64,000 nucleotides of DNA from Terebella lapidaria (lineage: Eukaryota > Annelida > Polychaeta > Terebellida > Terebellidae), in contig OX424559.1 of NCBI GenBank assembly GCA_949152475.1, positions 35,013,119 through 35,077,118 on the forward strand, written 5' to 3'. The translations under genes and the position numbers were made by a program. Numbering within the stretch: position 1 is the first letter of the stretch; every line of letters begins with the position of its first letter. The notes beneath the pieces are model-generated. The model was not told the DNA's origin. It made no database searches and saw only the letters and a program-made list of their open reading frames with translations. This document shows positions 9,085-57,176 of the stretch, piece by piece.

Positions 9085-9495
9085 CTATGAATGTACAGCC
9101 TCGTATTCCACAGGGCGCTGTGTTGAGAAAGAACAATACATGTTTAGGAACTGTCCGGGAATATATACAATATGTTCACGCAAAAAAATAACATGGCATC
9201 ATGTTACCCTATCAATCTCGTGCTCATTAAGGTCTTCATATTCCTTTGGCGGGGTTGTATTGTCTCCTAGTTGTGTCATCCCCACATTGCTGTATTGTAC
9301 CTCGGTCTGTTGATCCTAATGGTAAACATAACAATCGGGTGTAAGTATGAGTTTTTGTCCGTTGTTTATTTCTATGTTTATTATGAACAATGAATAACGA
9401 TTATGGTCTAGATGATCGAAAATAGTATAAACGATGAATACCACTATTGGTGTTGGATGTAAATAGTTGCTGACATCAGGCGGTCCATCTCGTCT
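9085..9495 (-). other. Cytoplasmic tail of gene A with ITIM-like motifs
   Basis: Exon 9433-9495 encodes RRDGPPDVSNYLHPTPIVVFI. Exon 9208-9315 (36 codons) has VQYSNV, a good fit to the ITIM pattern (V/I/L/S)xYxx(V/I/L), and 14 residues later YEDL. The last exon, 9085-9117, encodes RPVEYEAVHS and stop, where VEYEAV is again ITIM-like. Established knowledge: phosphorylated ITIMs recruit SH2 phosphatases. An inhibitory role here is inference. Confidence 0.7.
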
Positions 9496-12400
9496 CTGAA
9501 AATTTATGAAGGCCAGATTGTATGCACACTTGATTAGAAATTCTCTAGTTTCAACTCCGTTGAACCTACGATATGTTTCCACCAGAGCACTAAACATTCA
9601 GTATTGCAGTTTGCAGTCATGTTTCAAAAATTCGGAAAGTATTTTAAGGATACTCACTCTGAAAATACCTTTCTTTCTATGCAGCACAAGAACAACTACA
9701 ACAGCCAACACCACAACTCCACATACTGCTCCAACAACTATCCAAGTTACAGACTGGTCATCTGAAAAAATGGCAATATCCTACGATGGTTATAATATAT
9801 AGCATGTTATGTAATGCTTTGTTGTTAATATAATAATTCATTATTGAATCACTTAAGGACACAAACAAATACCACCCCAGTTAGTCAACCCACCAGCATT
9901 GACATCATAGCGAAGTGAGTCTGTGTTCACAAGGTCATCACCGTCATACAGCATGAACTCGAACACAAGTTGATCAGACTGTGGCGTGTTCACTAAGTAT
10001 GGTTGCATTGACGGGTCAGTGATGTTTGTTTTGAGGCACACACTGTCACTAGAAACACATGCTTGGATTACAATATGTGTTGTAGATTCGAGATGCGTCA
10101 AGTGCCATACAATCATTGCTGTGTCTCCATTAGTTTTGACAGTCCACTCTTTGCTGAATTCAGGTTTGGCTATGAACAAAATGCAAAAAAAAAACAAGTT
10201 ACAATAAGAATAATAATGCAATGACGTGATCTGTTGATGAGTAGATCATCTAGTGTTAGTACAAACCGAGTGTTGATTTGGTCGTTGCTGGACCAAAAGT
10301 ACTCCCAATTCTGTTCTTGGTATCCACTTGTATCCTGTAAGTATGATCCGGTAAGACAGTCACTGAATCGGCTATTTTGTACCTCACAATTTCGCCTTCT
10401 GGTACATCAGTTTCATCCAGCTCTCTGGTATACGATCCACCAGTGTCTATGTCAGTGTATGTGATGAGGAAGGACTGTCCGGGACCTCCGTGATACCCAG
10501 CCCTCCACTCCAGGTACAGACTCACAGCCGTCGCGTCAGTACGCACCAGGCCATACGGGGGATCCGGTGGGGCTGTGAAAATGTATGAGGTAGTGATTTT
10601 GGTTGACAGCTTTACCTCAGGAACCAGTTCGTCATAAATATATTTCATTTGTATGATTTATAAATGTATATATGGGCAACACCTCCAGCAGTGAGCCGCA
10701 CTGTGACGACCAAGGCGTTGCCGATACCATTGTCACATCTCAGCACGTACGCTCCGAAGTGAATGTTTGCAATGAATGGTATTTTGAAGAGCAGTCGGTT
10801 TTCGTAGCTGTGCTTTCCAGCCTCAACTATGATACTCACATCACCAGGCAAATTTCGCTCCACGTTCCCTGTCGTATCCGATGTGAATGTCCAGTTTTGT
10901 GTTGATATTTGTGGGAATGGATTAGCCGACAGGCGCACTGTCACTTCTAATTCTGTATTCAAGGGAATACCACGTCTCAAAATGTTGGGTTCCTCACCAC
11001 AGACATCGAATTCCCCTGTAATGTAATGCATCCATTTGATACATTGAACAATGACATGAATATTCATACAATGATGCACAGTGATAATCATACATACATC
11101 TGACTGTGAGAGTAGTGCTTGTGGAGGTACTGAGTGTAGACCCGTCCTCCTGAGCTGAACACGTGTAGACTCTCTGGTCGTCTGCCCGCAGTACGCCCTC
11201 AATCTTCAGCTGTCCGCCCGCCACAGTGTGTCTCTCTGTAGGGAGAGGTTGTCTTTCCCTCGTCCACGTGTACGTCATTGCTGGATCCAGGTTGGGAGGC
11301 TCTGATTGGCTGCTGGCTGTACACGTCATAGTGACATCATCACCCTCAAAAGGGTTTGTCGGACTTGTCACTATATTCGGTTCTGTGGGGGTCACTGTGA
11401 AAATATTAAAATCGGACTAGATACGAATGCTTTCTAACACGTGGCTCATCACACATCATGTATATATCGTCAAGTTAATCGTGGCAGCAAATTAATCTGT
11501 TTGTCATCAGACAAATTCTTGGATCAGAGATTGTGAGTACATATTACATTCCGACCATCGATACAAAGATCACTTATAAGCCCATTAGGAATGGATACGT
11601 TATTTTCCGTGTTTTTGTAAAATGTTTTTGTGTGTATAGTACGGTGGCTCATTACCGCCAATTACGTTCGTGTATTTCTCACCCCATTTATAACTACCAC
11701 CTCACAATATTCACCGCGTTTATAATTTCCACCCCGTTCATAATTATCACCTCAGAATTATCACCGCGTTCATAATTTCCACCCCGTCTATAATTATCAC
11801 CTCACAATTTACACCCCGTTTATAATTTCAACCCCGTTTATATTTATCACCTCACAATATTCACCGCGTTTATAATTTCCACCCCGTCTATAATTATCAC
11901 CTCAGAATTATCACCGAGTTTATAATTATGATTTGATCACAATCATTACTAGGTACAGAATTCCAATTGGTGCATTGAGTCTTAGTATGAACACTCTTGG
12001 TATTCTGTGTACCGTATTGACGCGCATATAAGGACATGTCCTCATATATGAGCACTTCCTTATATCCGGACATAAGAACATGTCCTTATATGATAACTTT
12101 CTTCAGAAACTGCCTGTAAAACACCTGACCCACATATAAGGACATTTTGCATGTGACTATAAATTGTGAAAAATGACGCAACTAGAACACATGTAGCACG
12201 TACCACTACGTATAGCATGTTCAGCATATTAATCTCGAATATTCTTGTGGTCTTGAAATTAAATTGTATTCATGTTGAATGTATGTGTTATAGACCTACA
12301 GGGAATTGTGCGTCACTCAAAGTGACAAAATCAATTGCGCCAATAATTTAATTAGGCCCCAATCTTCAGTTTATATTAGTCATATAGTGTCCTTATATAT

Positions 12401-14082
12401 GAATAAACGGGGTGTTTTATGTCTGGATGAAAGGCCGTCTCCTTATAAGTAAACATGTTTTGAATTTTCGATATATTGTGAAAATGCACAAATCCACATA
12501 TAAGGACCTGTCCTTATATGCGCTCCAATGCGGTAGCTATAGAGGCGTTTTCCATAAGCATCTTGTTGCTCTTGGGCTGCATATGTTCATGAAGTGAGGT
12601 GATAATTATAAACGGGGTGGAAATTCTAAACGCGGTGATAATTATGAGGTGATAATTATAGATGGGGTGGATATTTTGAACTCGGTGAATATTGTGAGGT
12701 GATAATTATAGATGGGGTGGAAATTATAAACGCGGTGAATATTGTGAGGTGATAATTATAGATGGGGTGGAAATTATAAACGCGGTGAATATTGTGAGGT
12801 GATAATTATAGATGGGGTGGAAATTATAAACGCGGTGAATATTGTGAGGTGATAATTATAGATGGGGTGGAAATTATAAATTCGGTGAATATTGTGAGGT
12901 GATAATTATAGATGGGGTGGAAATTATAAACTCGGTGAATATTGTGAGGTGATAATTATAGATGAGGTGGATATTATAAACCCGGTGAATATTGTGAGGT
13001 GATAATTATAGATGGGGTGGATATTATAAATTCGGTGAATATTGTGAGGTAATAATTATAGATGGGGTGGAAATTATAAACGCGGTGAATATTGTGAGGT
13101 GATAATTATAGATGGGGTGGATATTATAAACTCAGTGAATATTGTGAGGTGATAATTATAGATGGGGTGGAAATTATAAACTCGGTGCATATTGTGAGGT
13201 GATAATTATAGATGGGGTGGAAATTATAAACGCGGTGAATATTGTGAGGTGATAATTATGGACGGGGTGAGAAATACACAAACGTAATTGGCGGTAATGA
13301 GCCACCGTAGTGTAGAGATGTATATGTGACTGAAATATACCATGAAATACAAAAATACGAATATGTTCAAACCTCTTTTAACTACATGTAACTCACCGTA
13401 TATGAAAAGCTCCGCTATATCGTTGGTGTAAGGTACAGGACGAAGAATGAGATCCTGAACACTGCACTGGTAATTTGGTCCAGTATCATCATTCGTTGGG
13501 TTGTTCAAGGTCAGCGACATCTGCTGGTTGTTATCTGTGTATGACACACTTCCTCGTCCGATGTATTCAGAGTTCCACGTCTCTTGCCCATCAGAGAGAG
13601 ATTTAGTGTATATGGATTGTTCTCCGAATGCAAACACCAAACTGCCAAACTGTATGTCATCCAAGGTGCGGTCGATTTTCCAGGCAAAGGTCGCCTCTTG
13701 TGTGTCGTATATACGCACTACACCAGGCCATTTTAGGAATTGAATGTCTGAAACAGTTGCAGAAGCAATGTGCAGTTTCAATTATGAATTCAGCTGCAGA
13801 ATATTTAAAACATAAGATGTATTATTACATCAAACATGTTACATTGATGGGTACAATAAAATCACCGTACATGTCTCTGCAAAAATAGGGTAAATTGACA
13901 CAGCAGAATGAATGTACTGGACAGAGAAGTCGTCGTCTTCAATACCAACACAAGAATTGCCTAACTGCAACCATAATTAGTGCGAGTGGAGTGCCCACAC
14001 GACACACACCTGCAAATGTTCGCTTCAGGTGGCAACTCAAATGTACCAGTAGTAATCCTAAATATATGCCGACTTTATCCAT
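9085..14082 (-). CDS. Receptor gene A: IgSF/FN3 membrane receptor with ITIM-like tail
   Basis: Ten exons (minus): 14010-14082 signal peptide (MDKVGIYLGLLLVHLS); 13397-13747 V-like domain with F-W where the first Cys is expected; 11098-11394 canonical Ig (TMTC...YTC); 10683-11015 ANPF/NWTF domain; 10267-10572 FN3 (PPDPPYGL...); 9894-10169 second FN3-like domain; 9658-9761 transmembrane helix (WIVVGAVCGVVVLAV) and RKK; 9433-9495, 9208-9315 and 9085-9117 cytoplasmic. All junctions are GT-AG; ectodomain exons are phase 1 and tail exons phase 0. The total of 1944 nt gives 647 aa. The product should be a type I cell-surface receptor; its ligand is unknown. The 5' half matches gene D (Ig exon about 80% identical by hand count) and the 3' half matches gene B (FN3 about 86%), so it appears recombinant. 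Intron 2 carries the satellite-bearing transposon at 11642-13307. Confidence 0.85.
11642..13307. mobile_element. TA-flanked transposon with satellite arrays in its inverted ends
   Basis: Starts CGGTGGCTCATTACCGCC and ends with the exact reverse complement; about 44 bases match with one difference before the repeats begin. TA duplicates flank it at 11640-11641 and 13308-13309. Each end continues into an array of a 50-bp unit in opposite orientation (about five copies left, about thirteen right). The centre (about 12000-12590) has CATATAAGGACATGTCC-type phrases and no ORF. It is non-autonomous, probably Tc1/mariner-related by its TA target, and sits in intron 2 of receptor gene A. Confidence 0.8.
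12600..13290. repeat. 50-bp satellite array (about 13 copies)
   Basis: The unit contains GGTGATAATTATAGATGGGG and AAATTATAAACGCGGTGAAT and repeats every 50 bases with a few substitutions. The inverted partner array is at about 11660-11935. It lies inside the transposon in intron 2 of gene A. Confidence 0.9.
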
Positions 14083-14614
14083 CCTGGAAACAAACAAAAA
14101 ACATGTCAGGTATATGCTATTAGTGCATCTTCAGTATTATTGACTCTAGATATCCATAGATAAAATTGGTGAAAATAATATTTTCCTCTTGCACGTCTTC
14201 TTTTTGGATACTTGCTCCTCAAATTTTTAAATCCTAATTTACAATTCAGCAAGCCCTCACAAAACTTCAGCCAGTGGATGCTTGCATTGTCACGACTTCA
14301 CGTGTTTGACATATCCCTGCAATCACGCTGTCACGTTATACTTTATTTTCTCGAGAGAGAATGGCTGGCACCAGTGGTTCCCTGTCAACACCATGCACAT
14401 GCAATGTGTTTCCATTATATGATTTTCACATTACCATTTTGGTTAGCCTTCGTTTAGGCATTATTCAAATTATAATAAAAGGATCGGCACTGTATTGTTC
14501 ATATATGTTTAAACTAATGATATATGCTGTGCATACAACTCCAGACGAACCACAAGGTACACTATTTCATGTGACAAATAGACAGACCTTGAAAATTCTT
14601 TAAGACATATTAAA

Positions 14615-16022
14615 CGAGACAATCAGAGATTGCAGACCCTCTCCCTTCAGATGTAGTCACTAAAATTAGGCGATAATTGAGAGTTTTGGTCTTAAGACCA
14701 TCGGTTGTACGCCATACGATTGGGAATTGGCCAAAGAAAAATACAAAAATAGGTTGAAGATTTAATATTGATTAGAACCGGAGTTATAGCCAATTATGTG
14801 ATTTTCTTTTTTCCGTTGCCATGGCAACCGTTTTCTGAGCCACTACCATAGCACTCCAGTCCTATAAATTTCAAATCGATCGGACCGTTTGCCTTTGAGT
14901 TATGAGCGCAGACATTTGCACTGAAACGTCGCTGGCCAAAAATAACCGAAATCGTGACCCCTAATTTTTCGACATCGGGCGATAATACAGAGTTTTCGTC
15001 GTACGACCATCGGTCGTACACCAAACGATCGGGAATTGGCCAAAGAAAAATACAGAAATATTTGGAAAAATTAATATCAAGTAAAACCGGAGTTAGAGCC
15101 AATGATGTGAATTTCTTTTTTCCGTTGCCATGGCAACCGTTTCCATCCGATTTTGGTAAAATTTTAAAGGGACTGAGCCACCACCATAGCACTCTTGCCC
15201 TATAAGTTTCAAATCGATCGGACCGTTTGCCTTTGAGTTATAAGCGCGGACATTTGCACTGAAACATCGCTGGCCAAAAATAACCGAAATCGTGACCCCC
15301 AATTTTCCGACATCGAGCGATAATAAAGAGTTTTCGTCTTACGACCATCGGGCGTACACCAAACGATCGGGAATTGGCCAAAGAAAAATACAAAAATAGT
15401 TGGAAAAATTAATATCAAGTAGAACCGGAGTTAGAGCCAATGATGTGATTTTCTTTTTTCCGTTGCCATGGCAACCGTTTCCATCCGATTTTGGTAAAAT
15501 TCTGAAGGGACTGAGCCACCACCAAAGCACACTTGTCCTATAAGTTTCAAATCGATCGGACCGTTTGCCTTTGAGTTATGAGCGCGGACATTTGCACTGA
15601 AACGTCGCTGGCCAAAAAAATTCGAAACCGTGACCCCCAATTTTTCGACATTGGGAGATAATGGAGAGTTTTAGTTGTACGACCACGGGCCATATATCAG
15701 ATGATCAAGAATTGGCCATAGAAAAATACAAAATTAGTTAGAAAAAATTATCTTAATTAGAACCGAAGTTATGATCAATTATTGATTTTTACATTTTCCG
15801 TTGTCATGGCAACAGTTTTTGTCCGATTTTGACCAGATTCGAGGAGGACCGAGACTGAGATACCGCTTCATCTCTATTAGTTTCATGTTGATCGGACCAT
15901 TCTCCTTTGAGATATGCGCGCGGACAGACAGACAGACAGACAAACAAACAAACAAACAAACAGACATACAAACGGACAGACCCAATTGCAATACCCTCGC
16001 CCCCCTACGGGGCGAGGGTAAA
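14615..16022 (-). mobile_element. Non-coding repeat, long inverted copy
   Basis: Reverse-complement counterpart of 5272-6032, starting GAGACAATCAGAGATTGCAG and ending in the ACCCTCGC/GCGAGGGT hairpin next to (GACA)n/(AAAC)n. It is nearly twice as long because a module of about 320-350 bp (AAATCGATCGGACCGTTTGC, CGTTGCCATGGCAACCG, GGGAATTGGCCAAAGAAAAA) is repeated three to four times. It lies just upstream of receptor gene A. No protein function was recognised. Confidence 0.65.
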
Positions 16023-16115
16023 TATAGTGTCCACTGGCTCCATATTGAGCAGTTTAACACTAAAGCGATAATTGAAGAGTTATAGCAATACATGTATACG
16101 CATTTCTACCTGTTG

Positions 16116-16119
<4 letters not shown>

Positions 16120-16193
<74 letters not shown>
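16120..16193. repeat. (TA)n microsatellite
   Basis: Uninterrupted TA dinucleotides over about 70 bases; the Tyr-Ile ORFs across it are artefacts. Confidence 0.95.
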
Positions 16194-16198
<5 letters not shown>

Positions 16199-16249
16199 AA
16201 GTCCGGTTTCTCCAGGCAAACCATATGTATGTCAAGTCATTACTATATT

Positions 16250-16899: not shown

Positions 16900-17210
16900 T
16901 CTGGTCAAATTAAGTGCATACAACTGGAGTTAGAATACGCAAACACACCATATGCTGGCGATAAGAGAGTGTTGCTGCTTAGAAAAGGGAATGTGATTAT
17001 GAAAAAATTGAAATGATCACGCTTGTCATATAATCTAATAGAAAGGTTAGAATCGTCATCAATCTCCAAACTTAGATTCAAATATTTGGAAAAATGAGAG
17101 AACTCCATAGTATGAATTAATTTCATTAGGATATAGGTCTAGGATATCCAGAAAATCACCAAACTTAGAGATACGTATAGTTCTGAATGAGGTACTGTGG
17201 TTTGATGGAC
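16900..17210 (-). mobile_element. Reverse-transcriptase element fragment
   Basis: The minus strand encodes a broken stretch, LSLEIDDDSNLSIRLYDK then RDHFNFFI, followed by SPAYGVF, matching the better-preserved fragment at 55429-56170. It belongs to a non-LTR or Penelope-like reverse-transcriptase family; I cannot decide which. It is short and decayed. Confidence 0.6.
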
Positions 17211-18206: not shown

Positions 18207-21200
18207 TCAGAACAAAACAGTTCTATTTCCCTGCAAGCACCCGTTGCAGAGCCACTGCAAATCGCTGCGTGTGACGGATGCTGCTGCTGCTCTCCTTTCT
18301 CTTGTTGGGAGGCAGTGTGCGTGGTACCAGGTCGGACAACGATCACATCCATACCACTGACCAGGCACATCGGTCATGCAGACTGCACAGACCTCAACCT
18401 GATCATGAGGTGTGGTATCAGGCTCAGCAGTAGACTGTTGCGGGAGTTGCTGCTGGGTGTTTTGTGATTCGGTAGTAGCTCGTTGCTTGCTGTGACCCTT
18501 GCCTCGGCCTTTGCCTCGACCTTTACTGCTAAGTCTTGAGGGAGGAGCAACTGCGGGCTCGACAGGGTCATCAGCAGCTGAAAAATATTGTATTTATTAA
18601 ATGATCAATTTGGACATAGGACTGTATCCAGTAGTACAAATAGTAAATCTTTTTTATTGAGCATGGTGTCTGTGAACATGATATCACACCTATCATGATC
18701 ACGTGTAAGATATGACTGACCATTCGCAGCTTCAGTGAGCACAAGGATTCTGGAAGGGCCACAGACAGCTTCGAGTTGTGGAGGCTCTGCATCGGCTATG
18801 ATTAATACAAATTGAACATAAGAGGTCCATTGTTCCAGATGAAAATCAATGAATTACCGGAAAACACACCATTTACCATAGACAAAAATAAGTTGGACAA
18901 ATAACCTGGGTCAGTATCCTGTGTATCTAAAACATCCAGCTCCTTTGCAGTGATAATGCGCGCCCCCTTGATTTTGTCTTTCCGGGCTCGCTGAGTTTGT
19001 GGCGTCGTCTGGGGTGGGACAAGAATATCCTGCAGGTGTTGGGGAATAATCCCCAAACCAACGAGGGGATTTTCCTTGTAGTTGCCACAGGTGGGACATT
19101 TGTCTGCCTCTTCTCGCCTGGCTACCTCGGCTGTACGGCACTGCTGTGGAGTGACTGCATCGCGGTTGAAGGGAAATATTCCTGTTCCTGCAAATCCCCC
19201 GGTGATTGCTGAGCGTGTTATTGCGGATGTGGCATGATGGAGGACAATGGGCACTCTGTGTTTGGGCACATTCTTCATTCCAGCATAGCCCAACCCCACG
19301 GCGATTCTGTTGACCTCCTCCTTCAGCCTGCTGAAGTACGATGTATCCAGTGGTTGGAGGAGGTGTGTGGAGTGTGGAGGCAAGCAAAGGATTTCCACTT
19401 GATTGGCCCGGGCTAATTCTACAACCTGTAGCGACACATGGCTGACATGATTATCCATGATAAGGAGGATGGGTCTGTCGTCACCGCAGTTGTTGAGGAA
19501 GCTGCTCCGAAACCAATCAGTGAAGATCTCACACGTTATGTAGCCATTTGGTGAGGAAGCGAACGACCAGTTGTCTGGAACCTGGAGATCTTGTGTTGGG
19601 ATTGAGGCCTTGAAGATAACCAATGGTGGCAAACTTTCTCCAGCAGCACTGACCACAGACAACAAAGTTGTGTGTCCTCCGAGTGATGCTTTGCGTTGGT
19701 GTGCGTGTTTGGCTCCCTTCCTGACTACAACTTTCCCTCTTGTGGATTCCTTACCACTAAAGCCAGTTTCATCAAGGTTGAAGATACGGGTTGGTTTGTC
19801 TCGGATATCCAGCCTTGCCATCAGTCTCTCCAACATGTTGTAGAAACCCTCGACTTCATCGTATGCTACTTCTGCGCGATCACGATCGAGACCTTCAGGT
19901 CGTCTCTCTGACAGTTGACGCCTGTTTCGCTTCAAAAAATGCCTCACCCATTTGTTGGAAGGGCCACTCTGCAGATTCATCCTTGTCTGACGCCCCGACC
20001 TCAAAATGATGGACCTAGCAGCGATACGGATTTGTTGACGATTATATGGAAACCCTCTATCTGCGATGTACACGAGATAGGACACCAGCGCCTGCTCATC
20101 TTCTTCCGTCATCGCTCTCTCCGGCCCGAATGAAGTGGTGTAACCAGCATAAGCACCCGTCCATAAAACAGTTGTCAGTAACTACCCATATGATTTTGTT
20201 ACTACATATCGTCGCTGTCGAGTCAAAACCTCGTATCTCAAGTTTCAGCCATTTTGGGTTTAGGTCTCCAAGTTCATCCCAAGTGTGGTACATTTCTTGT
20301 GACAAAACCTCATAACTACCAACCAATAATTAATACCGTTTTTTGACATGTGACCAATCCACGTATTTTAATTGGCCACATGTTTGTCCAGACAAAAACT
20401 CGTATGTTACCTCGTAACATGATTGGTGTTCGCGTCTGTCATGACAAATCCTCGTATCTCAAAGGAAGCCATTTTTGTTTACACAAAATGCGGTCCCTAC
20501 ATTCTAAACTAGAGATAATATCGAGAATACCCAAGGTAACTGTAAGTATTGCAATGATGATGATGATGAAATTTTGTCAGTTAGACATTGTAGAACATGG
20601 CTGTGAGATTCGAAGACGTTAATTCGTCAATGAATGAGCGTTTTTCGACAAGTTCCGACAAGCATGACATACGAGGTATTTGCACTCTATCCGATTGACA
20701 TACAAGGTTTTACACTTATGCTAGTTGATGGTAGACCATGATGAAGAAAGCAACACCCGTATACAAGTCCCGGGGACAACTTTTGCTCGAGCTCTCTCGA
20801 CAGAAATGTTGTCAGTCTACGGAAACTGATTGGGGTTGTAGCCGAGCAATCCCTTTCGACAGAAAGTCTCAAGACGATGGGCACGAGGAAAGTGACGGGA
20901 GCATTTACAAACCATCCTCAAGCCAAGATGACAGCTCGGATTATGATGGTAAGTGTTTTACATGTAGCCAGTATAGTGCCAGCGTATAATGGCTTGATCC
21001 AGACTTTACTCCCGGAGGGTCGCATACCATTGCTTCCACCTTACACATATTAATGAATTATTGTTTCAAGTATTTGCATAACACCATGAAGCATTCATGA
21101 TATAAAAAAAATTACAACACACAAACCCCCTTAGGTTGGTACACATACACTGTATATCACGAATATTCGGCACGACAAAAACATCGTGATCTACACTATT

Positions 21201-24200
21201 TCGCGGTATAAAAATTTCATATGACATGTTTATCATAGAAGAATCGCGCCCAACCAACAACCTGTGTAGTAGCCTATGTGCAATCCGCTCTACTTCCTTC
21301 CACGCCCCCACGCCTTGCCCATTCCCCCAGCCTGGCTGCTCGCTTCAGCGCACGCAGCTAACTATGCCCTTAAATCTTGCTGATTTGAGCCCAAGTATCA
21401 TACCCTGCGCCTTAATACTACTCGTCCACTGAAATCATACCATTTAATGCATCGTCTCACACTTTTTCAATCCTTATTGAATAGAGAAGAAAACCCGGGA
21501 GATGATCCTTGGGCCCTTATTTGTTGCAATGAACGAGGTCCCATTTGTACTCTTGAAGCATTAGACAACTGACACTTCAAACACGTAACCAGCTGATATT
21601 CATATATATCCGAATATACTGGTACACTACATTTATATGGAGGCATTTAATGAGGGGAATATCAGGACCCTCCAATGAATTCACCGATCCTGTACTGTAA
21701 CTATTGAATTGAGTTTATGGCTTTTGGTTGATTCAAAGGTGACTACACCCTGGTAATAATACATGTACATTATCAGCATCAATGTTTTCTATCTCTACAC
21801 TGATATTACACGGACATGACGTCTCGTACATTTCGTATGAGAATTTAGTGTTTCTTGCATGACATGGAATGAAATTGGATTTGTGAACTGGACTAACCAT
21901 CGTAAAATCAGGCATTGTGTCCGTCGACCGTTGTCCGTCGTCATCAACAATTTCATCTTTGAAGTTCAGAGTTGATTCAATGTGAAAATTTTGGCAAAAA
22001 TATCGAACAATAATTTGAGAGGGAGGTTTATTATTTTTATATGTGATCCTGTCAAAATTTGAAATGGCAGTCGTTTTCGAATTTGAGATTTGGAAATATT
22101 CTACCACAATTCTACAGCTTTTGTTGTAATGGGAGCTGTACAGATTATACTCGTGAAATGTTTGAAGAAAGAGCTCAGTTATTGTCACATTCAAATAGGC
22201 AGTCATATATTTTTGATTTGAGGGTTGATCTTGAATTCGATCTTCAATGACCTTCAAAGGTCAAATTTATCATTTTCTGACAAAAAAATGACCATTTTGG
22301 ACTTCGAGAGCTTAAAATTGAACCTTTCTTAGGCCTTGAGCTAACTCTAGTTTAAGTTTTTGAATTGTCGAGTTATTTCAACTTTGTCTGCATAATTGTA
22401 ACAGGTGAATGAAATATCTCTTTTCAGATATCCCAATTCCAAGACGTAAAAGACGCAAGCTACATGTAAGAACTCAAGGGAGTAAAACGACAGTTACATC
22501 TCGAACAACAGCATCGGGCGTCCTGTCAGAACCACCCCATATCGATATCCAGAAGGCAGCTCAACCCCTCATCCCTGCCCAAGAGGAAACACCATCCCAC
22601 ATCCCAATCCAACAGGGAGCACCTCACCAAATCCCTGTCCAGCAGGCAGCAACACCCCACAATCCTGTCCAGCAGGCAGCACCTCACCAAATCCCTGTCC
22701 AGCAGGCAGCAACACTTCACAATCCTGTCCAGCAGGCAGCACCTCACCAAATCCCTGTCCAGCAGGTAGCAACACCCCACAATCCTGTCCAGCAGGCAGC
22801 ACCTCATCAAATCCCTGTCCAGCAGGCAGCAACACCCCACAATCCTGTCCAGCAGGCAGCACCTCACCAAATCCCTGTCCAGCAGGCAGCAACACTTCAC
22901 AATCCTGTCCAGCAGGCAGCACCTCACCAAATCCCTGTCCAACAGGCAGCAACACCCCACAATCCTGTCCAGCAGGCAGCACCTCACCAAATCCCTGTCC
23001 AGCAGGCAGCAACACCCCACAATCCTGTCCAGCAGGCAGCACCTCACCAAATCCCTGTCCAGCAGGCAGCAACACCCCACAATCCTGTCCAACAGGCAGC
23101 ACCTCTCCAAATCCCTGTCCAGCAGGCGGCAACACCCCACAATCCTGTCCAGCAGGCAGCACCTCACCGATTCCCTGTCCAGCAGGCAGCAACACCCCAC
23201 AATCCTGTCCAGCAGGCAGCACCTCTCCAAATCCCTGTCCAGCAGGCAGCAACACCCCACAATCCTGTCCAGCAGGCAGCACCTCACCGATTCCCTGTCC
23301 AGCAGGCAGCAACACCTCACAATCCTGTCCAGCAGGCATCACCTCTACGCACCTCTGCCCAGCAGACAGCACCTCTATGCACCCCTGCCCAGCAGACAGC
23401 ACCTCTCCGCATCCTTGTCCAGCAGGCAGCTCCTCTCCGCATCCCTGTCCAGCAGGCAGCACCTCTCCGCATCCCTGTCCAGCAGACAACTCCACTTGAT
23501 GTTCCTACAGATCCAACACCAACCTGTGGTCCAAGCAGCAGGAAGCGAGCTAAAAAAGGCCAAGCAGACCCTTCCAACTGGCAACGGAACAAAAACAAAA
23601 CTCGGCGTATGAAAGGACAGGCATATCAGGGACATAGAAAGGTCAGATCTTGCAATAAGCAAGAATATGTTACCAAAGAGCCTCGAAATATGGGTCCAGG
23701 TTGCTCATCAAAATCATGTGCTAAATCGAGGTGTTGTCGACAGTTCACTGAGTGTGAGAGACAATATATCTTCAAGAATTTCTGGGAGATGGATTGGGAC
23801 CAGAGAAAGGTCTATGTTGCCAGCATGGTGGACTGTGCTCCTCCAAAGCAAGTCACAATCTCAGCCACATCTTCAAGGAGACAGCATAGCTTGATATACC
23901 ACTTAAAACTTGACAACGAACGGAAACATGTCTGTAAACAAATGTTCCTTTCTACACTAGGCATAGGTGAATGGTCAGCACGAGAATGGACTCTCAAAGG
24001 CAATGCTGGAATGCATGCTACCACAGAGCATATCAAGCAGCCACAGAAGCAAAAAGAAGTGGACGTTGCTGGTAGAACTATTGCGAGAGAGTTTTTGGAG
24101 AAAATCCCAAAACTCGAATCACATTACTGTCGAGCATCATCAGAAAAACAATACCTCGAGCCTCTGATAACATCGAAGATGGAGCTGTACCGCATATTTG

Positions 24201-41327: not shown

Positions 41328-41447
41328 GTGCGTTTGTTGTCACATGCAGAAATTGAATCAACCTTGCCTTCTGCAACTCATATGGTGAATCGCGTTTTGA
41401 ATACCTCGATTTGGGATACTGTCATTATTCACAAGTTGTTTTTAACA

Positions 41448-47323: not shown

Positions 47324-48839
47324 CATATTTCTGCAACGGCCGAGCCTCTATAAATATTCACCATAATTGATAATACTATGAGTAGCATTCTTAGACATAG
47401 GGTGTTTATGGTTACAAACTGTTAATGAAATACATGATGCGGGTTATGGGGACTTGTCGCTTCCAAAGCTAATGTGTGATTGAACCAAAATGTATCTTGT
47501 ATCAAAATGGATCTCAAAAAAGTTGATATACGGTAATTGCGTGGACCAGTTTTGTTCATCGTTTTTTGTTCAACGTTTTCATTCTTGCTCTGGTGCGATC
47601 TTTCGATTGTGTAGAATAACAACTGATAATCGGTAAATTGAGTGCGCGAATCACCCATCAAATCACATCCACAATCCAAAGCTCACACAAAGGTATCGCC
47701 CACACGCCATCCCCGAAAAAGCACATATATTACTTACATGACTTTACGAATGATTTGTATACTTGTATGTTGGAAATATATGTATAAACCAGTGCCAGAA
47801 TCAGTAACTCAATGCTACCTAATCTAACGCCAGGTGTCCCTCATCCAATTATGTGAAGGGTAATAAACATGGACACTGAGTTTTCGCTGATGGTGCGCCT
47901 CAAGTGCCAGAATGACGCATCAGGAAACTGTTGGCGAAAACTATACACCACATGTGATTATTTGCCATAGCTTCTCCCCCTCGAGATCAACATGCAGAGG
48001 ATGAGCATGATACAAGTCTTGAATATAAACATTCAGAGCAGTTACTAGCGATATTCCAGATAGTATCGAGTCGAGTTAGTAACTCAATAGTAACATCGAC
48101 TCTAATAACCATTGAGAAAATCAATGCCACAGCAGAATTGTATTACATAAGAGGTATTTAAGTTCACGGCAAATGACAAATTAGGAACTAATTTCCATAA
48201 CTAAATAAGATCACATCCTCGAGTTAATAATACGAAGAAGAAAACTAAGACATTATGTATTTATCCATATATTTTATTGTTATATGGTATGTGATATAAT
48301 GATGATACAAAAACTGAACTATGACAGGTTGTCTGTTTGGGTAAGTTTACGTTTAATAGATGGTGGGTATCAGTCTCAAACCTAATGATGTTCTTTCAAT
48401 TTTGTTACTGGACCAGATTTGTGGTTATATACAGAACACACATACCACCGATCTAGGAAATTCAGCTAGAAAATACAGAGACTGTCAAGAAGATACTGAA
48501 CGTTAAGCAACCTTAAGTACCTCAATACCTCGAAAGGAACTTGTATTTTTTTATGAGAGCATAAAGTGTGTTTTTCTTAGTAATTTATGTATATTATTTA
48601 TTGAGGCACAGCTTGTATATGTTCGTAACTTTTGCTCCACCACAAAGCCGCCGATGGTGACAACATCTAGGTTTCTCTCTGTGCAAAGAACAGAATATAT
48701 TTGTTGTTAATAAGATAGCACATTATTGCAAGCTCTGAAACTGGATGTCAATACCTTTCCTATACATTCCACCATAGTTAAAGGAGAATATTTTGCTGAA
48801 TTAACTGCATGACCAACAGCACTGATGCTTGTTGGTTGA
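47324..48839. other. No gene seen
   Basis: Intergenic DNA between the 3' ends of the convergent genes C and D. No exon, repeat family or RNA gene recognised. Confidence 0.4.
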
Positions 48840-49099
48840 AATATTGTGTACATTAGACCACATCAAGTATATCAATAAATCACATCTATGACGTCGATCA
48901 TTTGGTCAACAATATTTGCACATCGTGATCGTTTAACCAGTCTTCCTTGTTTGAAAGTCCTCTGTACCTTTCGTTATCAAGTTTTCCATACCCCAAAATA
49001 CATGCATTCAACACTACATTTACTCTGTAAACAAAGACGTGGGTGAAGTCCCCTGGGAGACGGCCAACCAAGAAGTCAAGTACTGAATGGTATGCACAA

Positions 49100-49168
<69 letters not shown>

Positions 49169-49400
49169 TATAAGGAAATCATGTATGCTGGATGTCTACG
49201 AACTATATGTTTTCTCTCATCACGTTAAAGCATTCCTTGGGTATATTTGCTGATGGCATAACGTGGTCAGATTATGTCCATTGACGCTACTATGACAATC
49301 CGCACGATAGGGCATCATGCATATATCACCAAATGGCATTTATCCACAAGCATTTATTCACAACGGATTCATGTGTGGTAGTACTGAAATGTGAAATTTG
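48840..49400. repeat. Segmental duplicate, partner of 1.44-2.17 kb
   Basis: Matches 1440-2170 phrase for phrase (see that entry). It contains a (TA)n tract at about 49109-49162 where the partner has only a short TATATA. It is the 3' flank of gene D. Confidence 0.75.
49109..49162. repeat. (TA)n microsatellite
   Basis: About 54 bases of TA dinucleotides, expanded relative to the duplicated copy near 1.93 kb. Confidence 0.95.
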
Positions 49401-50081
49401 GAGTTTTTACAATGTGCTTCAATTTGGCTGAGTTTTTCCAAATTACAATAATGCAAATATATTTTTAAATGGTTATCTTATTTTCGAACATGTGTAAAAT
49501 GAACATCTAATACAAATCTCAAGATGCACTGTGATGGTGTGATTTTTCAGCATGAAAATTTAGACTCATTGGCCGGGAAATTATCACCGAATACTTCGGG
49601 CACAACAACAAAATATGAACCAGATACATACGAGTAATGCATGACAACATATTATAAGTACTATTTTTTAACATAAATGTATACAATTTAAGGCACAATA
49701 TAGATATGAAATCATGTTCATCTTTGCTCCGACATATTCACAGTGTATTACTGTAGAATGTTACAGGTTCCCAGGTGTATGTCTGCAATCAGTCCGCTAG
49801 TTTCGTGAAAAGGATTCATAAGCAGCTGGTTCCTGTTAAAAGATAAACAACAACATGTGTTGAAAGGAGTAGCAACAGAGTCATGCTTAAATGCGAACAA
49901 ATCAAAGAATTTTTTCAGTCACCGTTTGTATGTTTTGCATATCCAGGCCCTCATAGTTCTCAACATGGGACGCTCCCAAGTCGTCATATAGGTTCGTTTC
50001 CTGACAATGTAGAAACGAGAGCAACAGTGGAACAGTCACGTACATCAATATACACAGGAAATGTTTTCAGAGGCGCTGCGG

Positions 50082-53000
50082 CTAAGTCTGCGGCACAGTG
50101 TGCATGTGCAAACATATATATGTCTTGTTGCAGCGAGTGTTTTCTGTGATATTAATAATTACCTTAGAAACTTCAGAACCAATCAGCTCGTCATATTGCT
50201 TATCCAATGGAGAAGATAAACCAATGTTCTCATATTGGATCACTGGACTATTGGCTTCAACCTTCTGTGAAAACAAATGAAGAGGTGTCTTTTTATTGTC
50301 TACCTGAACTCTGGTTTATGTATTTGTTCTGTATTCACGTTGTGTAGCAGTGTACCTGGGCATTATGTCTGAACTCTGTCGTGTTCTCGTTGTGAGGAGA
50401 TGTGTTCGTCGTTCTTTCTGTTTTCTGGAATGAAATGTTACATTGTTATATTCATTATTACATATAATACATGAGAACAATTGCTTTACTTTGCACTCAT
50501 TTTGATCCGATACATCCCCTGTCTTATTATAAATTGTATGGTGAGCTAAATGTACTAAAACCTTTGGAAGTTTCCCTTTCCTCCACAGAACAACAATGAC
50601 AGTGGCGAGGACAGCTGCCGCGAGAACACCAACAACACAGCCCACAATGATGCCGACCGGTGGTCCTCCTGTGACACAAAGTAAACTAAAGAAATATTCA
50701 TGGTGAACAATTCATGTTTGACCACGTTTCCTTTAAATCTTCAAATGTCAAATTAAGTAACAAACAGTCGGCTCGCTCTGGTTGTTGAGCGTTTTATATC
50801 GACGCTAACTTGTACAACATTTGTGATGTTGTTTACTTCAGCCTGTGTTGAAAATGTACCAATTATCATGTGACACTAACCTATATTGGACATATAATCA
50901 TAGCTCGTTTGGTACACGACGTCCTGTCCGTCATACAAGTGGAAATCAAATACGAAGCTCTCGGCCTCAGGCAGCCTAACGATGTAAGGTGTCGTATCAA
51001 GGTCGAGAATTTCCGTCATGATAAAATTGTCATCATCATTCATATCTGAAGCGTTAACATTCATGTGTGAGGCTGATCCCCGGTTAGTCAATTCCCAGTC
51101 TATGAATGCCACGTTTTTGTCCCTGTCGATATCTATCGCTGGATCACCCTCAAAGGACGGCTGATCTGTGTAACATAACATTCAAACCAGTCACCCACGA
51201 TGAGTACAGTGCTACCCCGTAATCTGTAATAACAAAATCTGCAGGCATGTGCATTATACCATACACAATCTCCTGATTATTATCATATCACTTGTTAAAT
51301 TACTTCTTGTATAGAGCAAACTTCATTGTTCATTTTGTATGTTCTACTCTCTATCGTATACGTATACTTAAAACCTTGCCAAGGGAAAACATAAGCAAAT
51401 ACCGAGTGTTCTGTTGGTGACGGAAGGTCCTGGTGTGGTACCAAACTCATTCCGTGCATCCACCTGGATCTTATACACCACTGACGACACAATTCCTTCA
51501 CTCTCAGCCAGTCGCACGTCCACCAACATTCCGTCCTCAAACCCAGAGCCGTCTACCTCAAGGACTCGGCTCTCTCCAGTGTCCTGTCTGGTATAGGACA
51601 CCACAAAGTTCTGATCAGCACCGCCGTTATACCCGGCCGTCCACTGCAGATAGATGCTGACGGCTGTGGTCCTGGTACACGAGAGTGCTTCAGGGGGATC
51701 TGGTGGACCTGAAAACGTTATTTCATGTTGCTTTAGGTAAACTATATGTCAATACTCACCATTAAGGGAAAGTAAATTTTTTTCCCGAATTTTACGTACA
51801 CACATTTTCAGGGGTAACTAACGATGTGCTACTAAATAAAGTGAGCATACCTTCTAGCATAACGACAAGAGTAAACACTAAGCGTTGACCGAGTCCATTG
51901 TCACTGGCCATTGTGTAAGTTCCATAATGTGTCGCCGTCAGGGTCGGTATTTCAAAACCAATAATTTTCTGGTAGTGGTGGGATGTCGACAATGTTGTTA
52001 TAATTATGTCGTCCGGCAAGTTGGACACCTTGGCTGTTCCATTGAGAGATTCGAATGTCCAATTCACTTTTGATATGGGAGAGAAGGGATTGGCGAACTG
52101 ACATATCTGCTCCTGTAAGTTGACATCTAAAGAGACACCTCGCTTGATTTCTCTGGTCTGATTGTCACAGAAGTGAAAACCACCTGCAACCAAATTCCAC
52201 ATAATCATGATTTATTCCACTGAAAATAATATGGATCTCGAGTTAAAGCATCGAATGTCAGATGGGCTCGGGAATTATCGAATCGTGCATCACATGTGAC
52301 AATCATTCCTCTCGTTTACAATAACTCGTTTACAATGGACCTCCCATTCCCTCTCATTCATTGTTCAAATTGCCACCCGTCCATCAGAGAAGGCTGCGAT
52401 TGGATCAATCGAAAGGTAGATTTGCGCATACAAACGCATTTATGCCCCAGAATGATTACATACGCATCGAATATGCATGATAGTAACACTACCAGAGCAT
52501 AAGCTCACACAGTTTTGCCACACTGTTCCGAATGTTTTTAACTCCGACCAGCATTCAATATTTTATGCCATTGAAGTAAGACACAGCGAACTCATTATGA
52601 ACATTGCCAATTTGATATTAAACTTTTGTGAAGTATTCTTTTCTTGCCTGAAGCATCAATGTCACAAAATGTTACCAATATACCATTAGAATCCATCAAA
52701 ACTAGTTATACCTGCCGGAAAAAAAAACAATGAACAGGACTTCCAACTGAGTGAACGTCATCAACAACGGTGAACCAACTGGAATGATTGTCACATTTAT
52801 TGCATATTTGCAGTCAATAGAGTCCATGTTTCTCAACTACTTTTCAAGAAAAAAAAAGAATATTCTCCCTTTTCCAAAGAAATTATCATTAACGAGATTA
52901 TGCATGACACAAACATTGAGTGGAATGAGAAATCAGTGTCAAGTGATATAGGCAATATTGAATTTGGTGGGGGGGGGGGGGACGCTGAACACCGGATATC

Positions 53001-56000
53001 AAATGCGAACCGGGTTGTCAAATATTTCATAGATATGTCACAATTAAGGGAACGTTCCAGAACGTTTTGCTGCATTGAACGCGCTACTATTAGTTTTCCC
53101 TAAACAAATACTCACAGAGAGTATTCAAAACTGTGGAAACAAATGGTATATGTCAAGAATGCCAACATCAATATTTCTGATTGTGGACATACTTATAAAC
53201 GTATTTATTACTCAACACTGGCATGTCAATGTATACGAAGCTCATACATGCATTGTAAAATTTGACTTAGCTGCTATTTTTATCTGTAAATTTAATAGGT
53301 ATGCTAGGTATTAATTGTGAGCGATCTTTCTCTCTTGGGGGAAGAGGGTGATTAGGCTTGATTTCTAGGATCATGAGCAGCTCAGTTTTTTTTTAAAAAA
53401 AGTTTTGTACAAGCTATACATATCTACAAGCTAGACATATCCATAATGGCAGGAGCTTTATCGGACAAGCAAGTAATGTGGTATTTTCGTCGACCCTGTG
53501 GGATTGAGACAGTTCGTGGCCATAGAGTGCCAATGGTAGGGTAAATATCGTGGATACTCTTAACATAAGCCCATAACACAAATAAATGTGAAAATAACAA
53601 TCAAAGATGCCCGTGTCCAATTACCAAGAAGTTTTGAAAACACTGAAAAAAGGGCTGGCAGAATGTCGAGTGGATGTCACGTAGCGTTCCATTATTAGTT
53701 CGTTCACTTTAGTGAAATTTCTGTGTGGGTTTCATGTCATTCATATCTAAGATAACCCAGACCTTTATTCGAAATTCCCCGCCTGACCGACTCCGACACT
53801 TGGACTCTAATAATTCCAAATCTCATTGCATTATTACCATGTCTGAAAACTAACTGAGCATACAACGACCAACCTTTGATATCAATATCCTTATCCACTT
53901 CCTGTGTAGTTTGCGAAAGGTCATTCCTCGCTGAACACTGATATGTTCCCGAGTCCAGAACGCTGATCGACACAAAGTTGTATGTAGCATTTTGTCCAAA
54001 CACTGACGCGATGGGCGTTGTGGAGTTCTTTATGATGATCTCAGAATCAGGTCTGCTTGTAACTGAACAAACTAGAGTCAGAGCGTCCCCGTGGAATACC
54101 TCTCCAGGAGAACCACTAAAGTATGTGATTTCTGTGGCATCTAGAAATTATAATAATCAACATTTTAAGATTTTTTGTTCTTCTTCTTAATCATTATTAT
54201 CATTATTATTTTATTTTTTTCTATTTTTTTTTTACAGCGACAACACTAAAATATTAGTCAGAATCATCTGGCTATTGTACAGTATAATATATGTATAGTG
54301 TTATGATCCTGGAATGAGTCAAAGTGAGAACCATACACACATCTAACTGTCAGCGTGATGCTTGTGGAGGTACTGAGTGTAGACCCTTCCTCCTGCGCGG
54401 TACACGTGTACACTCGCTGGGCGTCTTCCCTCAGTACCCCCTCAATCGTCAGCTGTCCCCCTGCCACAGTGTGTCTGTCTGTGGGGAGAGATTGTCCGTC
54501 CCTCGTCCACGTGTACGTCATTGCTGGTATCAGGCTGGGAGGTTGTGATTGGCTGCTGGCTGTACAGGTCATGGTGACGTCATCACCATCCACTGGGTCT
54601 GCCAGACTTGTCGCTATACTTGGTTCTGTCGGTGTCACTGTGAAAATATAATAATTCACACTATCTAACATGTCGATACGTATGCTGTTGATTAACTTGC
54701 ACCTGGTACAGTGCACAACGAAGGTTATTTCTTCAAATTATTCGTGGTAGTAAAACCATTCATATGTATTCATATGATTCTGGCGACCTAAATATAAAAA
54801 CCTTCTATTTGTCAGGAGTTTTGCTTTCCGAGGGAGAGAGTTAGTATTGTCCCCTGCGTCCGATATTAGCGGCTTATGAGTGGCGCTATTCTTGCTTCTA
54901 TGCATCAGTACGTTTTAATGTTATTTTAAAAATGTTGGTTTCAACAAAAGTATGGATGCAATTGCCAAAATAAATGTTGTTGGTTTTTGGTTTGTATAAG
55001 CTTTAGGAATCTATTGATAGCTAATAATCGCAAAATATCCAGAAAAATTTGATATTTGATTCGTTCTGGACGAGATGGTCGTATGCTGATAAACTTAAAA
55101 AAAAAATACTTATATAACAGACCTTCGGTAATTACCTTTGACTAGGCTATATCATGGTTTCAGAGTCTTTCAGGCTAAGGGACTACCTATATAGATACAG
55201 ACATAGACGTGGAATCAATACCCAGTATTAAGTATTCCGAGCAAAAAAAAACAGGGTCCGTTATCCAATCTCATAGTCCGGGGACAGAAAGTCATATCAG
55301 GCATACGAAGTGAGAGAAAACAAAAATGACAGGGAAACTCATGAACCCCCAAAAATGGCCATTAGGAGGTGAAATCAGGTGTTCCGGAAAGAGTGAGCAT
55401 TTCCTGCCCCGTCATGAATTTCCCAAAATTAACATGAAAACAGATCTAGTTGGATGGAAGACATGGATTTGCTGTATCCTTTTACCAGATCATGATGACG
55501 TCCATAGAATTTCTTAAACGCAGCTATAAGTCTTGGTAAAACATATCCTAGTCGCAGCAGTTTAGAGACTAGCTGGACACTTCGATAGACAAAGTCCTCA
55601 TATTTGCAATTAGCCCTGGAATAGCGTATAAGTTGAGAAACAAACACACCATATGCCGGTGACATAGGAATGTTGCTGCTTAGAAAAGGGAAATTGACTA
55701 TGGAAAAATTGAAATCATCACGTTCGTCATATAATCTAGTTGACAGGTTAGAATCATTATCAATCTCCAGCCTCAGGTCTAGATAGTTGGAAAAATTAGC
55801 GGAGTCTGCAGTATCCTTAATTTCAAGTTCCTTAGGATATATGACATCCAAATAATCACCAAATTTGGGATTATTTAGCGACAATACATCATCTATGTAT
55901 CAGAAAGTGAAATTAAAATTACATGTTAGTTTCTTAGAACCTCCTAGTTGTAAATGTTGGATAAAATCTTATTCATATGAGTATAAAAACAGGTCTGCCA

Positions 56001-57176
56001 ATAATGGTGCACAGTTTGTACCCATGGGAATACCAGTAGTTTGTTGAAATATTCGACCACCAAATTCCACAAAAATATTATCAATCAGAAAGTTAACCAT
56101 ATTTACCACATCTATTTCAGTATATTTGTATGAGGGAATCAGAGTCACCTTTAACAAAATAAGCGGCATTATATTTAACTATAATATAGTGGTACCGACG
56201 TTGTCCCTTTTTAGAGAAAAATGGATTATTGATTAATTTTTTAAGCTGATATAATATAAATGTATATTATATTACATTTGCTGATATTTATTGTATTTCA
56301 GTTACATTACATTACAAACCGTTTTACCTAGATGTCACTCACCATATATGAACAGCTCCGCCATGTCGTTCTTGATAGGATCACTACTGAGACCTGTGAC
56401 AGTGCACTGATAATTTGACCCAGTGTCATTCATAGTGAGGTTGTTCAAGGTCAGCGACATCTGCTCATGACGGGTGAATGAGTATGACACACTTCCTCGT
56501 CCTATGTATTCCGGATACCAGACCTCCAGCAAATCAAGAAAATCAAATCTGTATATGAATTGTTCTCCAAATTGAAACTCCACAGAGAACCATGTTTCAA
56601 ACAGGGAGCCGTTGATTTTCCAAGTGAACGTCTCTTGTTGCCCATCATATATACGCACTACACCAGGCCATTGTGTGAACTGAATTTCTGGGGGAAACAA
56701 ACAGAAACGTAATACATAAACAGCTAGAACTTAAAGGGCATCATATGGGATTCCGTTTTTAGGGGATTTCCAGATTTGTCGGCCGACGCTGTTTTATTTA
56801 TAGAACAATAGGTCAGATTACGTTTTTGTCCCGGGATCTCTGGTGAGCCAATTGTCAGATCAGCCCAGGTTGGCTCGGCAGATCTCCTAGGTCAAAAACG
56901 TCATCTGACGTTTTGTTCTATAAATAGAAACTTCGGGAAAAAAATCTTGGAAATCCCCTAAAACAGAATCTCATAGAGCGCCCCTTTAAGCTGCGGCACA
57001 TTGTACCAATCTAAATAATATTATTACATGGAATCTTTTGACATCTATGGAAACAATAATCTATCTTTTACTAGGATAAATTCCTAACTAAGTTGATACA
57101 GACCTGCAAACAATCCTCCTAGGTGACCGCACACACTTACTAGTAGTAACACTAAATATGTACTGGCTTGGTACAT
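50082..57176 (-). CDS. Receptor gene D: IgSF/FN3 membrane receptor, ITAM-like tail
   Basis: Exons (minus): 57104-57176 signal peptide (MYQASTYLVLLLVSVCG); 56343-56687 V-like; 54341-54637 Ig1; 53874-54140 Ig2; 51851-52183 ANPF/NWTF; 51403-51708 FN3; 50881-51165 FN3-like; 50562-50668 transmembrane (VGIIVGCVVGVLAAAVLATV); 50356-50424; 50163-50264; last exon unresolved. The simplest end is a two-codon exon at 50082-50087 (Thr-stop), giving 2190 nt and 729 aa. Signal and Ig1 exon lengths (73, 297) equal those of gene A, and Ig2 (267) equals Ig5 of C. Intron 2 hosts a reverse-transcriptase fragment (55.4-56.2 kb) and intron 1 a MITE (56731-56990). Ectodomain junctions are phase 1. It should be a type I receptor. 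Confidence 0.82.
50163..50424 (-). other. Cytoplasmic tail of gene D with ITAM-like pair
   Basis: Exon 50356-50424 encodes KTERTTNTSPHNENTTEFRH then NAQ. Exon 50163-50264 (34 codons) has IQYENI and, nine residues later, QYDEL: YENI-x9-YDEL fits the loose ITAM pattern, while IQYENI alone also fits an ITIM. The remnant E exon at 4.4 kb keeps both tyrosines. Confidence 0.65.
55429..56170 (-). mobile_element. Reverse-transcriptase element fragment in intron 2 of gene D
   Basis: Minus-strand pieces show reverse-transcriptase signatures in order: TTGIPMGTNCAPLLADLFLY, then the YIDDV catalytic box followed by LSLNNPKFGDYLDVIYP, then LYDERDDFNFSIVNFPF, SPAYGVFVSQLIRYSR and FYGRHHDLVKGY. This is the common non-LTR or Penelope-like family with the GIPMGTNCAPLLADL motif. 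It is incomplete. A smaller relative is at 16900-17210. Confidence 0.75.
56731..56990. mobile_element. Fold-back MITE in intron 1 of gene D
   Basis: Outer arms CTTAAAGGG ... CCCCTTTAAG and AGGGGATTTCCAGATTT ... AAATCTTGGAAATCCCCT pair. An inner pair, TATAGAACAA ... TTGTTCTATA with ACGTTTTTG ... CAAAAACGT, makes most of the 260 bases self-complementary. No ORF. Confidence 0.8.

Follow-up and report, generated by a model that had tools for sequence, protein, structure and literature searches.

The window analysed here is a stretch of 64,000 nucleotides from chromosome 5 (C5, 45,195,318 bp) of Terebella lapidaria, C5:35013119-35077118 in an assembly of 761.6 Mb and 438 contigs. It holds four complete predicted multi-exon genes, A, B, C and D, for receptor-like proteins of the immunoglobulin superfamily (IgSF). 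An earlier note on this DNA had described four multi-exon genes on both strands of a lophotrochozoan genome. The organism is indeed an annelid, the gene models are clean, and the outer limits that the note assigned to the cluster coincide to the base with the stop codon of A (9085) and the start codon of D (57176).

The four models were built from exact splice sites in the DNA. Gene A (14082 to 9085, minus strand) has 10 exons encoding 644 aa (14082-14010, 13747-13397, 11394-11098, 11015-10683, 10572-10267, 10169-9894, 9761-9658, 9495-9442, 9315-9208, 9117-9085) and is supported by its splice sites, an open frame and a Pfam Ig match. Gene B (30438 to 36099, plus strand) has 11 exons encoding 669 aa (30438-30498, 30690-31010, 31166-31471, 31626-31955, 33439-33744, 33823-34098, 34228-34334, 34649-34702, 34845-34952, 35032-35139, 36067-36099). 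Gene C (41448 to 47323, plus strand) is the longest, with 15 exons encoding 1045 aa (41448-41502, 41668-41994, 42089-42391, 42496-42777, 42861-43181, 43459-43716, 43803-44069, 44155-44487, 44809-45117, 45475-45738, 45868-45980, 46403-46477, 46842-46949, 47114-47200, 47288-47323); Pfam places four Ig_3 stretches and fn3 on its product, and an additional in-frame ATG lies upstream at 41382. Gene D (57176 to 49797, minus strand) has 12 exons encoding 765 aa with Pfam Ig and fn3 matches (57176-57104, 56687-56343, 54637-54341, 54140-53874, 52183-51851, 51708-51403, 51165-50881, 50668-50562, 50424-50356, 50264-50163, 50000-49923, 49832-49797). No internal stops occur in the four models, and all introns are GT-AG with the single exception of a GC-AG intron in C. 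A chance origin of these models is excluded, since the nearest paralogous exons are 82-91% identical in nucleotide (nt) sequence and the exon set is repeated about 60 times in one chromosome region.

Each domain occupies one exon, in the order signal, V-like, Ig, ANPF, FN3, FN3-like, transmembrane (TM) segment and cytoplasmic tail; signal peptides and TM segments were identified by eye. The common plan proposed in the earlier note stands as to order, except that extra Ig exons follow the first: none in A or B, four in C (IgX1, IgX2, IgX3 and IgP, 42496 to 44069) and IgP only in D. Every junction between the signal exon and the TM exon is in phase 1, making the domain exons symmetrical (1-1), and tail exons are in phase 0-0. 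Loss, gain or skipping of such symmetrical exons leaves the frame intact.

The ectodomain is recognizable in part by profile search. Scanned as whole proteins, all four genes show Ig above the Pfam cut-off and B, C and D show fn3, with A's fn3 at 22.7 bits against a cut-off of 25. The ANPF exons (also called ANPF/NWTF; A's at 10683-11015) and the membrane-proximal FN3-like exons come nowhere near a cut-off when scanned alone, and the V-like exons scanned alone stay below threshold. D's V exon passes as V-set only within the whole protein and scores 17.6 against 26 bits by itself. An Ig fold for the V-like exons would follow from these partial matches and a conserved R...D...YxC pattern. The V alignment comprises 28 exons, from 27 of 30 fetched loci (including the window's four and a copy of D on an unplaced contig; three broken loci were excluded) and from one gene on C8; some 36 other V places lie outside it. 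The first canonical cysteine position is occupied by Trp in every aligned exon, A's (13397-13747, minus strand) among them. The second canonical cysteine is kept in 24 of the 28 and replaced by Leu in four, the Asp preceding it is invariant (28/28), and the D-strand Arg is present in 27. The missing disulfide is therefore a family trait, not the decay of individual copies.

Tyrosine motifs are spread over the predicted tails. They were scored as [S/I/V/L]xYxx[I/V/L] for the immunoreceptor tyrosine-based inhibitory motif (ITIM) and as YxxI/L-x(6-12)-YxxI/L for pairs resembling the corresponding activation motif (ITAM-type), with the chance level obtained by permuting each tail. A's TM exon (9761-9658) and tail exons, together 9085-9761 on the minus strand, encode VQYSNV, KEYEDL and VEYEAV. 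In B the tail exon is tandemly duplicated (34845-34952 and 35032-35139, plus strand), each copy encoding VQYSNV...YEDL, and a third, partial copy (35498-35524) lies within a 385-bp tandem duplication of 99.2% identity. C's tail exons (46842-47323, plus strand) encode VQYQNI, VYEAM, SVYQAI, YEEL and VVYESI; D's (49797-50264, minus strand) encode IQYENI-x9-YDEL and YDDL-x7-YEGL, the latter being the only pair with the classic ITAM spacing of 6-8. ITIMs exceed the shuffled tails in A (two, P 0.0061), B (two, P 0.0098) and C (three, P 0.0017), and ITAM-type pairs exceed chance in C (two, P 0.0002, spacings 10 and 11) and D (three, P<0.0001, spacings 9, 11 and 7). The hydrophobic TM core of A to D contains no D, E, K or R, as judged by eye.

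D-type tail exons elsewhere in the genome retain these features. The D-type tail exon gives 33 matches (32 on C5 and one on the unplaced contig C61), 20 of which were fetched; three more were available and ten remain unread. Two tyrosines with a hydrophobic residue at +3 are present in 20/20, a strict ITIM in 17 and an ITAM-type pair in 16, and the string IQYENIG[L/M]...QYDELI is found in 12, the other eight deviating at one or more positions. Over all 31 tail exons compared, an ITIM occurs in 25 and an ITAM-type pair in 17.

The window also contains the remains of a fifth copy, as the earlier note had proposed. On the minus strand at 4222-4859 lie a truncated TM piece (about 4824-4859), a D-type tail exon (4438-4539) and, at about 4222-4256, what remains of the last exon; no ectodomain exons were found at 4.2-4.85 kb. 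The duplicated flanks of that description are present too: the 3' flank of the broken copy (1583-2126, minus strand) shares 74-78% identity with stretches of the 3' flank of D at 48785-49353. The tail exon of the broken copy and one at C5:34.853 Mb are the same but for one residue over the aligned stretch.

The four genes lie at one edge of a far larger complex. C's V exon, D's ANPF exon (51851-52183, minus strand) and C's FN3-like exon were used as queries against the animal's own genome at E<=0.1; the counts are lower bounds. The V query gave 68 matches that merge into 66 places (64 on C5, one on C61 and one on C8), the ANPF query 72 matches in 70 places (68, one and one) and the FN3-like query 61 matches (59, one and one). 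V and ANPF places on C5 span 33.08-36.16 Mb, and a dense block at 34.02-35.07 Mb holds 54 of the 64 V places, with the window's four at its right-hand end. For 62 of the 66 V places an ANPF exon of the same orientation follows no more than 20 kb downstream, at a median distance of 2.4 kb, involving 59 distinct ANPF exons; 41 of these pairings are on the minus strand and 21 on the plus strand. With D's V exon as a second query, 54 matches were obtained, all at the same places save one weak match at C5:17.86 Mb (E=0.086). A generic V-set model matched 20 places on many contigs genome-wide and none in the region of the complex, indicating that this confinement is a property of the family and not of V domains generally. 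The cluster of receptors with tyrosine-motif tails seen in the earlier note is accordingly larger than claimed, at about 60 genes in one chromosome region. Stop codons interrupt 9/68 V, 1/72 ANPF and 6/61 FN3-like matches, leaving 59, 71 and 55 stop-free.

Several other loci bear on this complex. In the C8 gene the exons run V, Ig, IgX1, IgX2, IgP, ANPF, FN3, FN3-like, TM and tyrosine-motif exons; no stops occur in the domain exons compared, with about 11.6 kb between two fetched pieces unread. This layout suggests that the long form is ancestral and that A, B and D were shortened. The last six ANPF matches, at C5:35.93-36.16 Mb, are weak (E 6.6e-5 to 0.05) and have no V partners; they are possibly a related second receptor array. 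Two loci 89 kb apart, L027 (C5:34563891) and L028 (C5:34474675), have near-identical V exons with a common in-frame stop, a duplicated broken copy.

Exon comparison reveals a mosaic history. By their heads the genes fall into the types A/D and B/C, and the membrane side groups them differently. The Ig exon of A (11098-11394, minus strand) is 85% identical in nt sequence to D's, with a synonymous divergence (dS) of 0.38, and those of B and C are 82% identical (dS 0.40). A and B are 91% identical in the FN3 exon (A's at 10572-10267), 81% in the FN3-like exon (A's at 10169-9894; both 9894-10572, minus strand), 89% in the TM exon and 90% in the tail exon. The remaining pairs of the same exons are 38-54% identical, with dS above 1.1 or saturated. 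The ANPF exons are distant in every pair among A to D (47-57%), and C and D have distantly related tails (34% aa identity). Trees confirm the two groupings: V plus Ig places A with D (92% support; the alternative is rejected by the approximately unbiased (AU) test, p 5e-51), and FN3, FN3-like and TM together place A with B and locus L048 (100%; AU p 5e-9). A further locus, L049 (C5:34.23 Mb), has a V exon nearest B's (73%) and, beyond Ig, is nearest to C; its membrane side is decisive (AU p 3e-7). Median dS also differs along a subgroup of 12 loci, at 0.52 for V, 0.13 for Ig and IgX1 and 0.25 for IgX2, after exclusion of stop-bearing exons and of pairs whose dS fell beyond the range 0.01-1 (which left 41 of 45 V pairs). 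Such differences between adjacent exons imply that exons were homogenised or exchanged separately. The whole is a clustered family that evolves by birth and death, with members exchanging parts.

Near-identical second copies exist for D and C. The unplaced contig C61 carries a second version of D, with an identity of at least 99% over the exons V to FN3 and of 83-97% over TM to tail. Apart from an insertion, the similarity extends over 59.07 to 49.13 kb of the window. Beyond this match C61 runs into satellite-like repeats and a dispersed repeat, so that an allele and an extra copy are indistinguishable; C61 as a proven second allele of D was rejected as unproven. The dispersed repeat (L042:8801-9300, or C61:53800-54299), in the 3' flank of the D-like copy, is listed in 42 places including itself, and 40 of these are full-length or nearly so at 95-100% identity, which points to recent activity. 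Gene C has its own near-identical copy, L047, 0.6 Mb away. In 150-bp windows, identity is lowest around the tail exons, at 82-93% for C and L047 and 83-92% for D and C61, with nearly all else at 94-100%. A specific donor of these divergent tail exons was sought and none identified, the nearest tail loci compared being at most 89% identical.

Taken together, we put at roughly 60% the probability that this is an immune-type, paired-receptor complex of type I transmembrane IgSF receptors within a germline multigene family, as judged from sequence. The outermost V domain would bind ligand, and the Ig, ANPF and FN3 domains would act as a spacer of variable length. Tail tyrosines, once phosphorylated, would recruit SH2 proteins, with A and B delivering inhibitory, ITIM-type signals and C and D ITAM-type signals in immune cells. 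Related heads on ITIM-type and ITAM-type tails would thus make opposing receptors on immune cells. The family would diversify in the germline by duplication, by gain and loss of Ig exons and by duplication of tail exons, and recombination or gene conversion would join a head type to another tail type. More tentatively, the complex may be a paired-receptor system of a solitary annelid that is independent of those in vertebrates, tunicates and cnidarians, with heads recombined onto ITIM or self-contained ITAM-type tails. A/D and B/C could then be pairs, two head types by two tail classes (a close one in A and B, a much looser one in C and D), with all four combinations within 48 kb. The earlier note had proposed an immune or self-recognition complex; we infer the immune part on reasonable grounds, whereas self-recognition has no direct support.

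Several observations weigh against the immune-type, paired-receptor interpretation. Of the V-like exons scanned alone, those of A, C and D match Ig below threshold and over the second half of the exon, that of B (30690-31010, plus strand) has no match, and B's Ig exon (31166-31471, plus strand) has lost its second canonical cysteine (YRITAQ against C's YTCTAQ). D has one strict ITIM, which is not significant (P=0.16), B's final tyrosine motif is not an ITIM, and no ITAM-type pairs were found in the tails of A and B. Conservation of motifs in the 20 fetched tail loci is not an independent sample, these loci having been found with D's tail as bait. The FN3 exon of L047 is frameshifted, which complicates any simple story, and the V side of L049 is borderline (AU p=0.050). 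Whole-exon dN/dS for V and Ig exons is 0.31-0.41, and dN exceeds dS in 2 of 41 V pairs. Such ratios show no positive selection; it was sought on the V exon by pairwise dN/dS in the 12-locus subgroup and on close pairs, and none was found at the whole-exon level. The description of these genes as rapidly changing needs correcting: the family plainly shows duplication, exchange of exons and broken members, but dN/dS does not exceed 1.

The best of the other explanations, though an unlikely one, is a neuronal or epithelial family for cell identity or adhesion, comparable to the clustered protocadherins or to Dscam/DIP/Dpr, whose homophilic or heterophilic binding would match cells and have no part in immunity. 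Ig plus FN3 is an architecture typical of adhesion molecules. Comparison of the C ectodomain with solved structures returns a mix of adhesion and immune IgSF chains: the best 60 of 79 matches include titin, contactin, Robo, SYG-2, IgLON and RPTP, but also CD22, MAG and CEACAM6. Adhesion is further disfavoured by ITIM/ITAM-type motifs in excess of chance, by the interrupted V and FN3-like copies, by heads recombined onto differing tails and by the frameshifted near-identical copy of C.

Less probable again is a self/non-self system for allorecognition or gamete compatibility, in the manner of Hydractinia Alr or Botryllus fuhc, in which a polymorphic V would bind V or a polymorphic ligand and the tails would integrate the signal. 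Terebellids are solitary and are not known to fuse, which speaks against it. The second version of D on C61 speaks for it, yet the two versions do not differ in V, where 114/114 aa are identical. Also in its favour are the concentration of many IgSF genes in one region, their ITIM/ITAM tails and their unusual V, as described for Alr and FcoR in excerpts of PMC11067881 and PMC12065747. A mostly selfish or neutral segmental-duplication array, in which repeat-rich DNA copied a receptor gene and few copies function, is very improbable: transposons, satellites and recent tandem duplications do lie in or beside the window's genes and on C61, and some copies carry stops, but most V, ANPF and FN3-like matches are stop-free, dN/dS is well below 1 and two tyrosine motifs are preserved across divergent copies.

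The window contains further elements besides the receptor genes. Between A and B, at 18207-20181 on the minus strand, lies an open reading frame (ORF) for a Tc5/DDE_1-type transposase (18802-20181) with an adjoining PHD-finger ORF. A 943-aa ORF at 22409-25240 (plus strand) begins with about 1.1 kb of a 30-nt tandem repeat that is open in several frames on both strands, and a DUF7869 domain follows downstream of the repeat. In A's second intron (11635-13393), oppositely oriented arrays of a 50-bp minisatellite flank about 0.6 kb, a structure that looks like a non-autonomous element. Tandem repeat units of about 338 bp form two mutually inverted arrays at 5258-6035 and 14613-16035. A reverse-transcriptase-like ORF, recognized by eye in D's second intron (55429-55899, minus strand), has a relative between A and B at 16940-17166 and no Pfam match at E<=1. 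Scans of the window with Rfam (at gathering scores) and for tRNAs returned no matches. Elsewhere in the assembly, the mitochondrial genome is contig C438 (15,973 bp); its genes lie all on one strand (rRNAs, nad3 and atp8 placed by position) and include two adjacent Met-tRNA genes at L073:1989-2118. Such an adjacent pair is a terebelliform trait, and the gene order of C438 follows the annelid pattern.

Several known systems resemble the Terebella complex in part. Vertebrate paired receptors and those of the leukocyte receptor complex (LRC), such as KIR, LILR, SIRP and Siglec/CD22, are clustered IgSF genes with ITIM tails, related ectodomains on differing tails and exchange between genes, and the Terebella complex shares all of these. 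Activating paired receptors of vertebrates mostly rely on charged TM residues and adaptors, whereas in Terebella the TM segments lack charged residues and C and D have ITAM-type pairs in their own tails. FN3 domains and a V-domain Trp are not features of the LRC; KIR and LILR ectodomains consist of C2-type Ig domains only, unlike Terebella B, C and D with fn3 above the Pfam cut-off. Among lophotrochozoans, oysters have single-pass IgSF receptors with ITIMs; compared by description only, we know of no oyster complex of 60 genes with the Terebella domain plan. For annelids, no report of a comparable complex was found in the open-licence literature (subscription papers were not covered). The word immunoglobulin is absent from the main text of both the Alvinella genome paper (PMC12403961) and an annelid comparative-genomics paper (PMC11371463), which both use T. 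lapidaria.

Comparable complexes are also described for hydroids and a sea squirt. Excerpts of two papers credit Hydractinia with at least 41 Alr loci in one region (Huene et al. 2022, cited in PMC11067881 and in PMC11999971, which reviews invertebrate IgSF), and an excerpt of a third gives 22 Alr loci in the Podocoryna complex (PMC13119343). The Hydractinia complex is described in part of PMC11067881 as containing pseudogenes and divergent alleles on separate scaffolds, and PMC12065747, also in excerpt, calls the V-set and I-set domains of Alr unique and reports ITAM/ITIM motifs on candidate genes. Dozens of clustered genes for type I IgSF receptors are common to both animals (here 64 V and 68 ANPF places on C5). 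In Terebella the V primary sequence is unusual, with Trp in 28/28, and V exons alone stay below threshold in Pfam. The differences are that the Terebella long form has six Ig-type exons, ANPF and two FN3-type domains before the membrane, and that Terebella is a solitary annelid with no shown role in fusion; the likeness to Alr is one of description only. In Botryllus schlosseri, the FcoR genes of fuhc number 53 loci with a variable-type Ig domain, a TM segment and ITIM, hemITAM or YxxI/L/V tails, and haplotypes vary in gene content (PMC12065747, in excerpt). These too are clustered V-type Ig receptors with tyrosine-motif tails. Where the Terebella genes have ANPF and FN3, FcoR carries one sushi and two C2 Ig domains, and no sushi domain was found in the A to D proteins by Pfam at E<=1.

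As excerpted, PMC12065747 reads large ITIM/ITAM-tailed IgSF complexes as unrelated receptors that have converged on a shared signalling logic. A reference assembly, an alternate haplotype (GCA_949152485.1) and an RNA-seq run (ERR12765137, posterior body) of T. lapidaria have been deposited (PMC11364976, in excerpt), so that material for studying expression and polymorphism is already at hand. Because a single assembly lets head-tail exchanges be read, the complex offers a direct system for studying how recombination in the germline links binding to an inhibitory or an activating signal. Complexes of this kind have been described in vertebrates, one tunicate and one hydroid; a lophotrochozoan example with about 60 genes would close the gap in protostomes and would test whether they arise wherever cells discriminate self, altered self and microbe.

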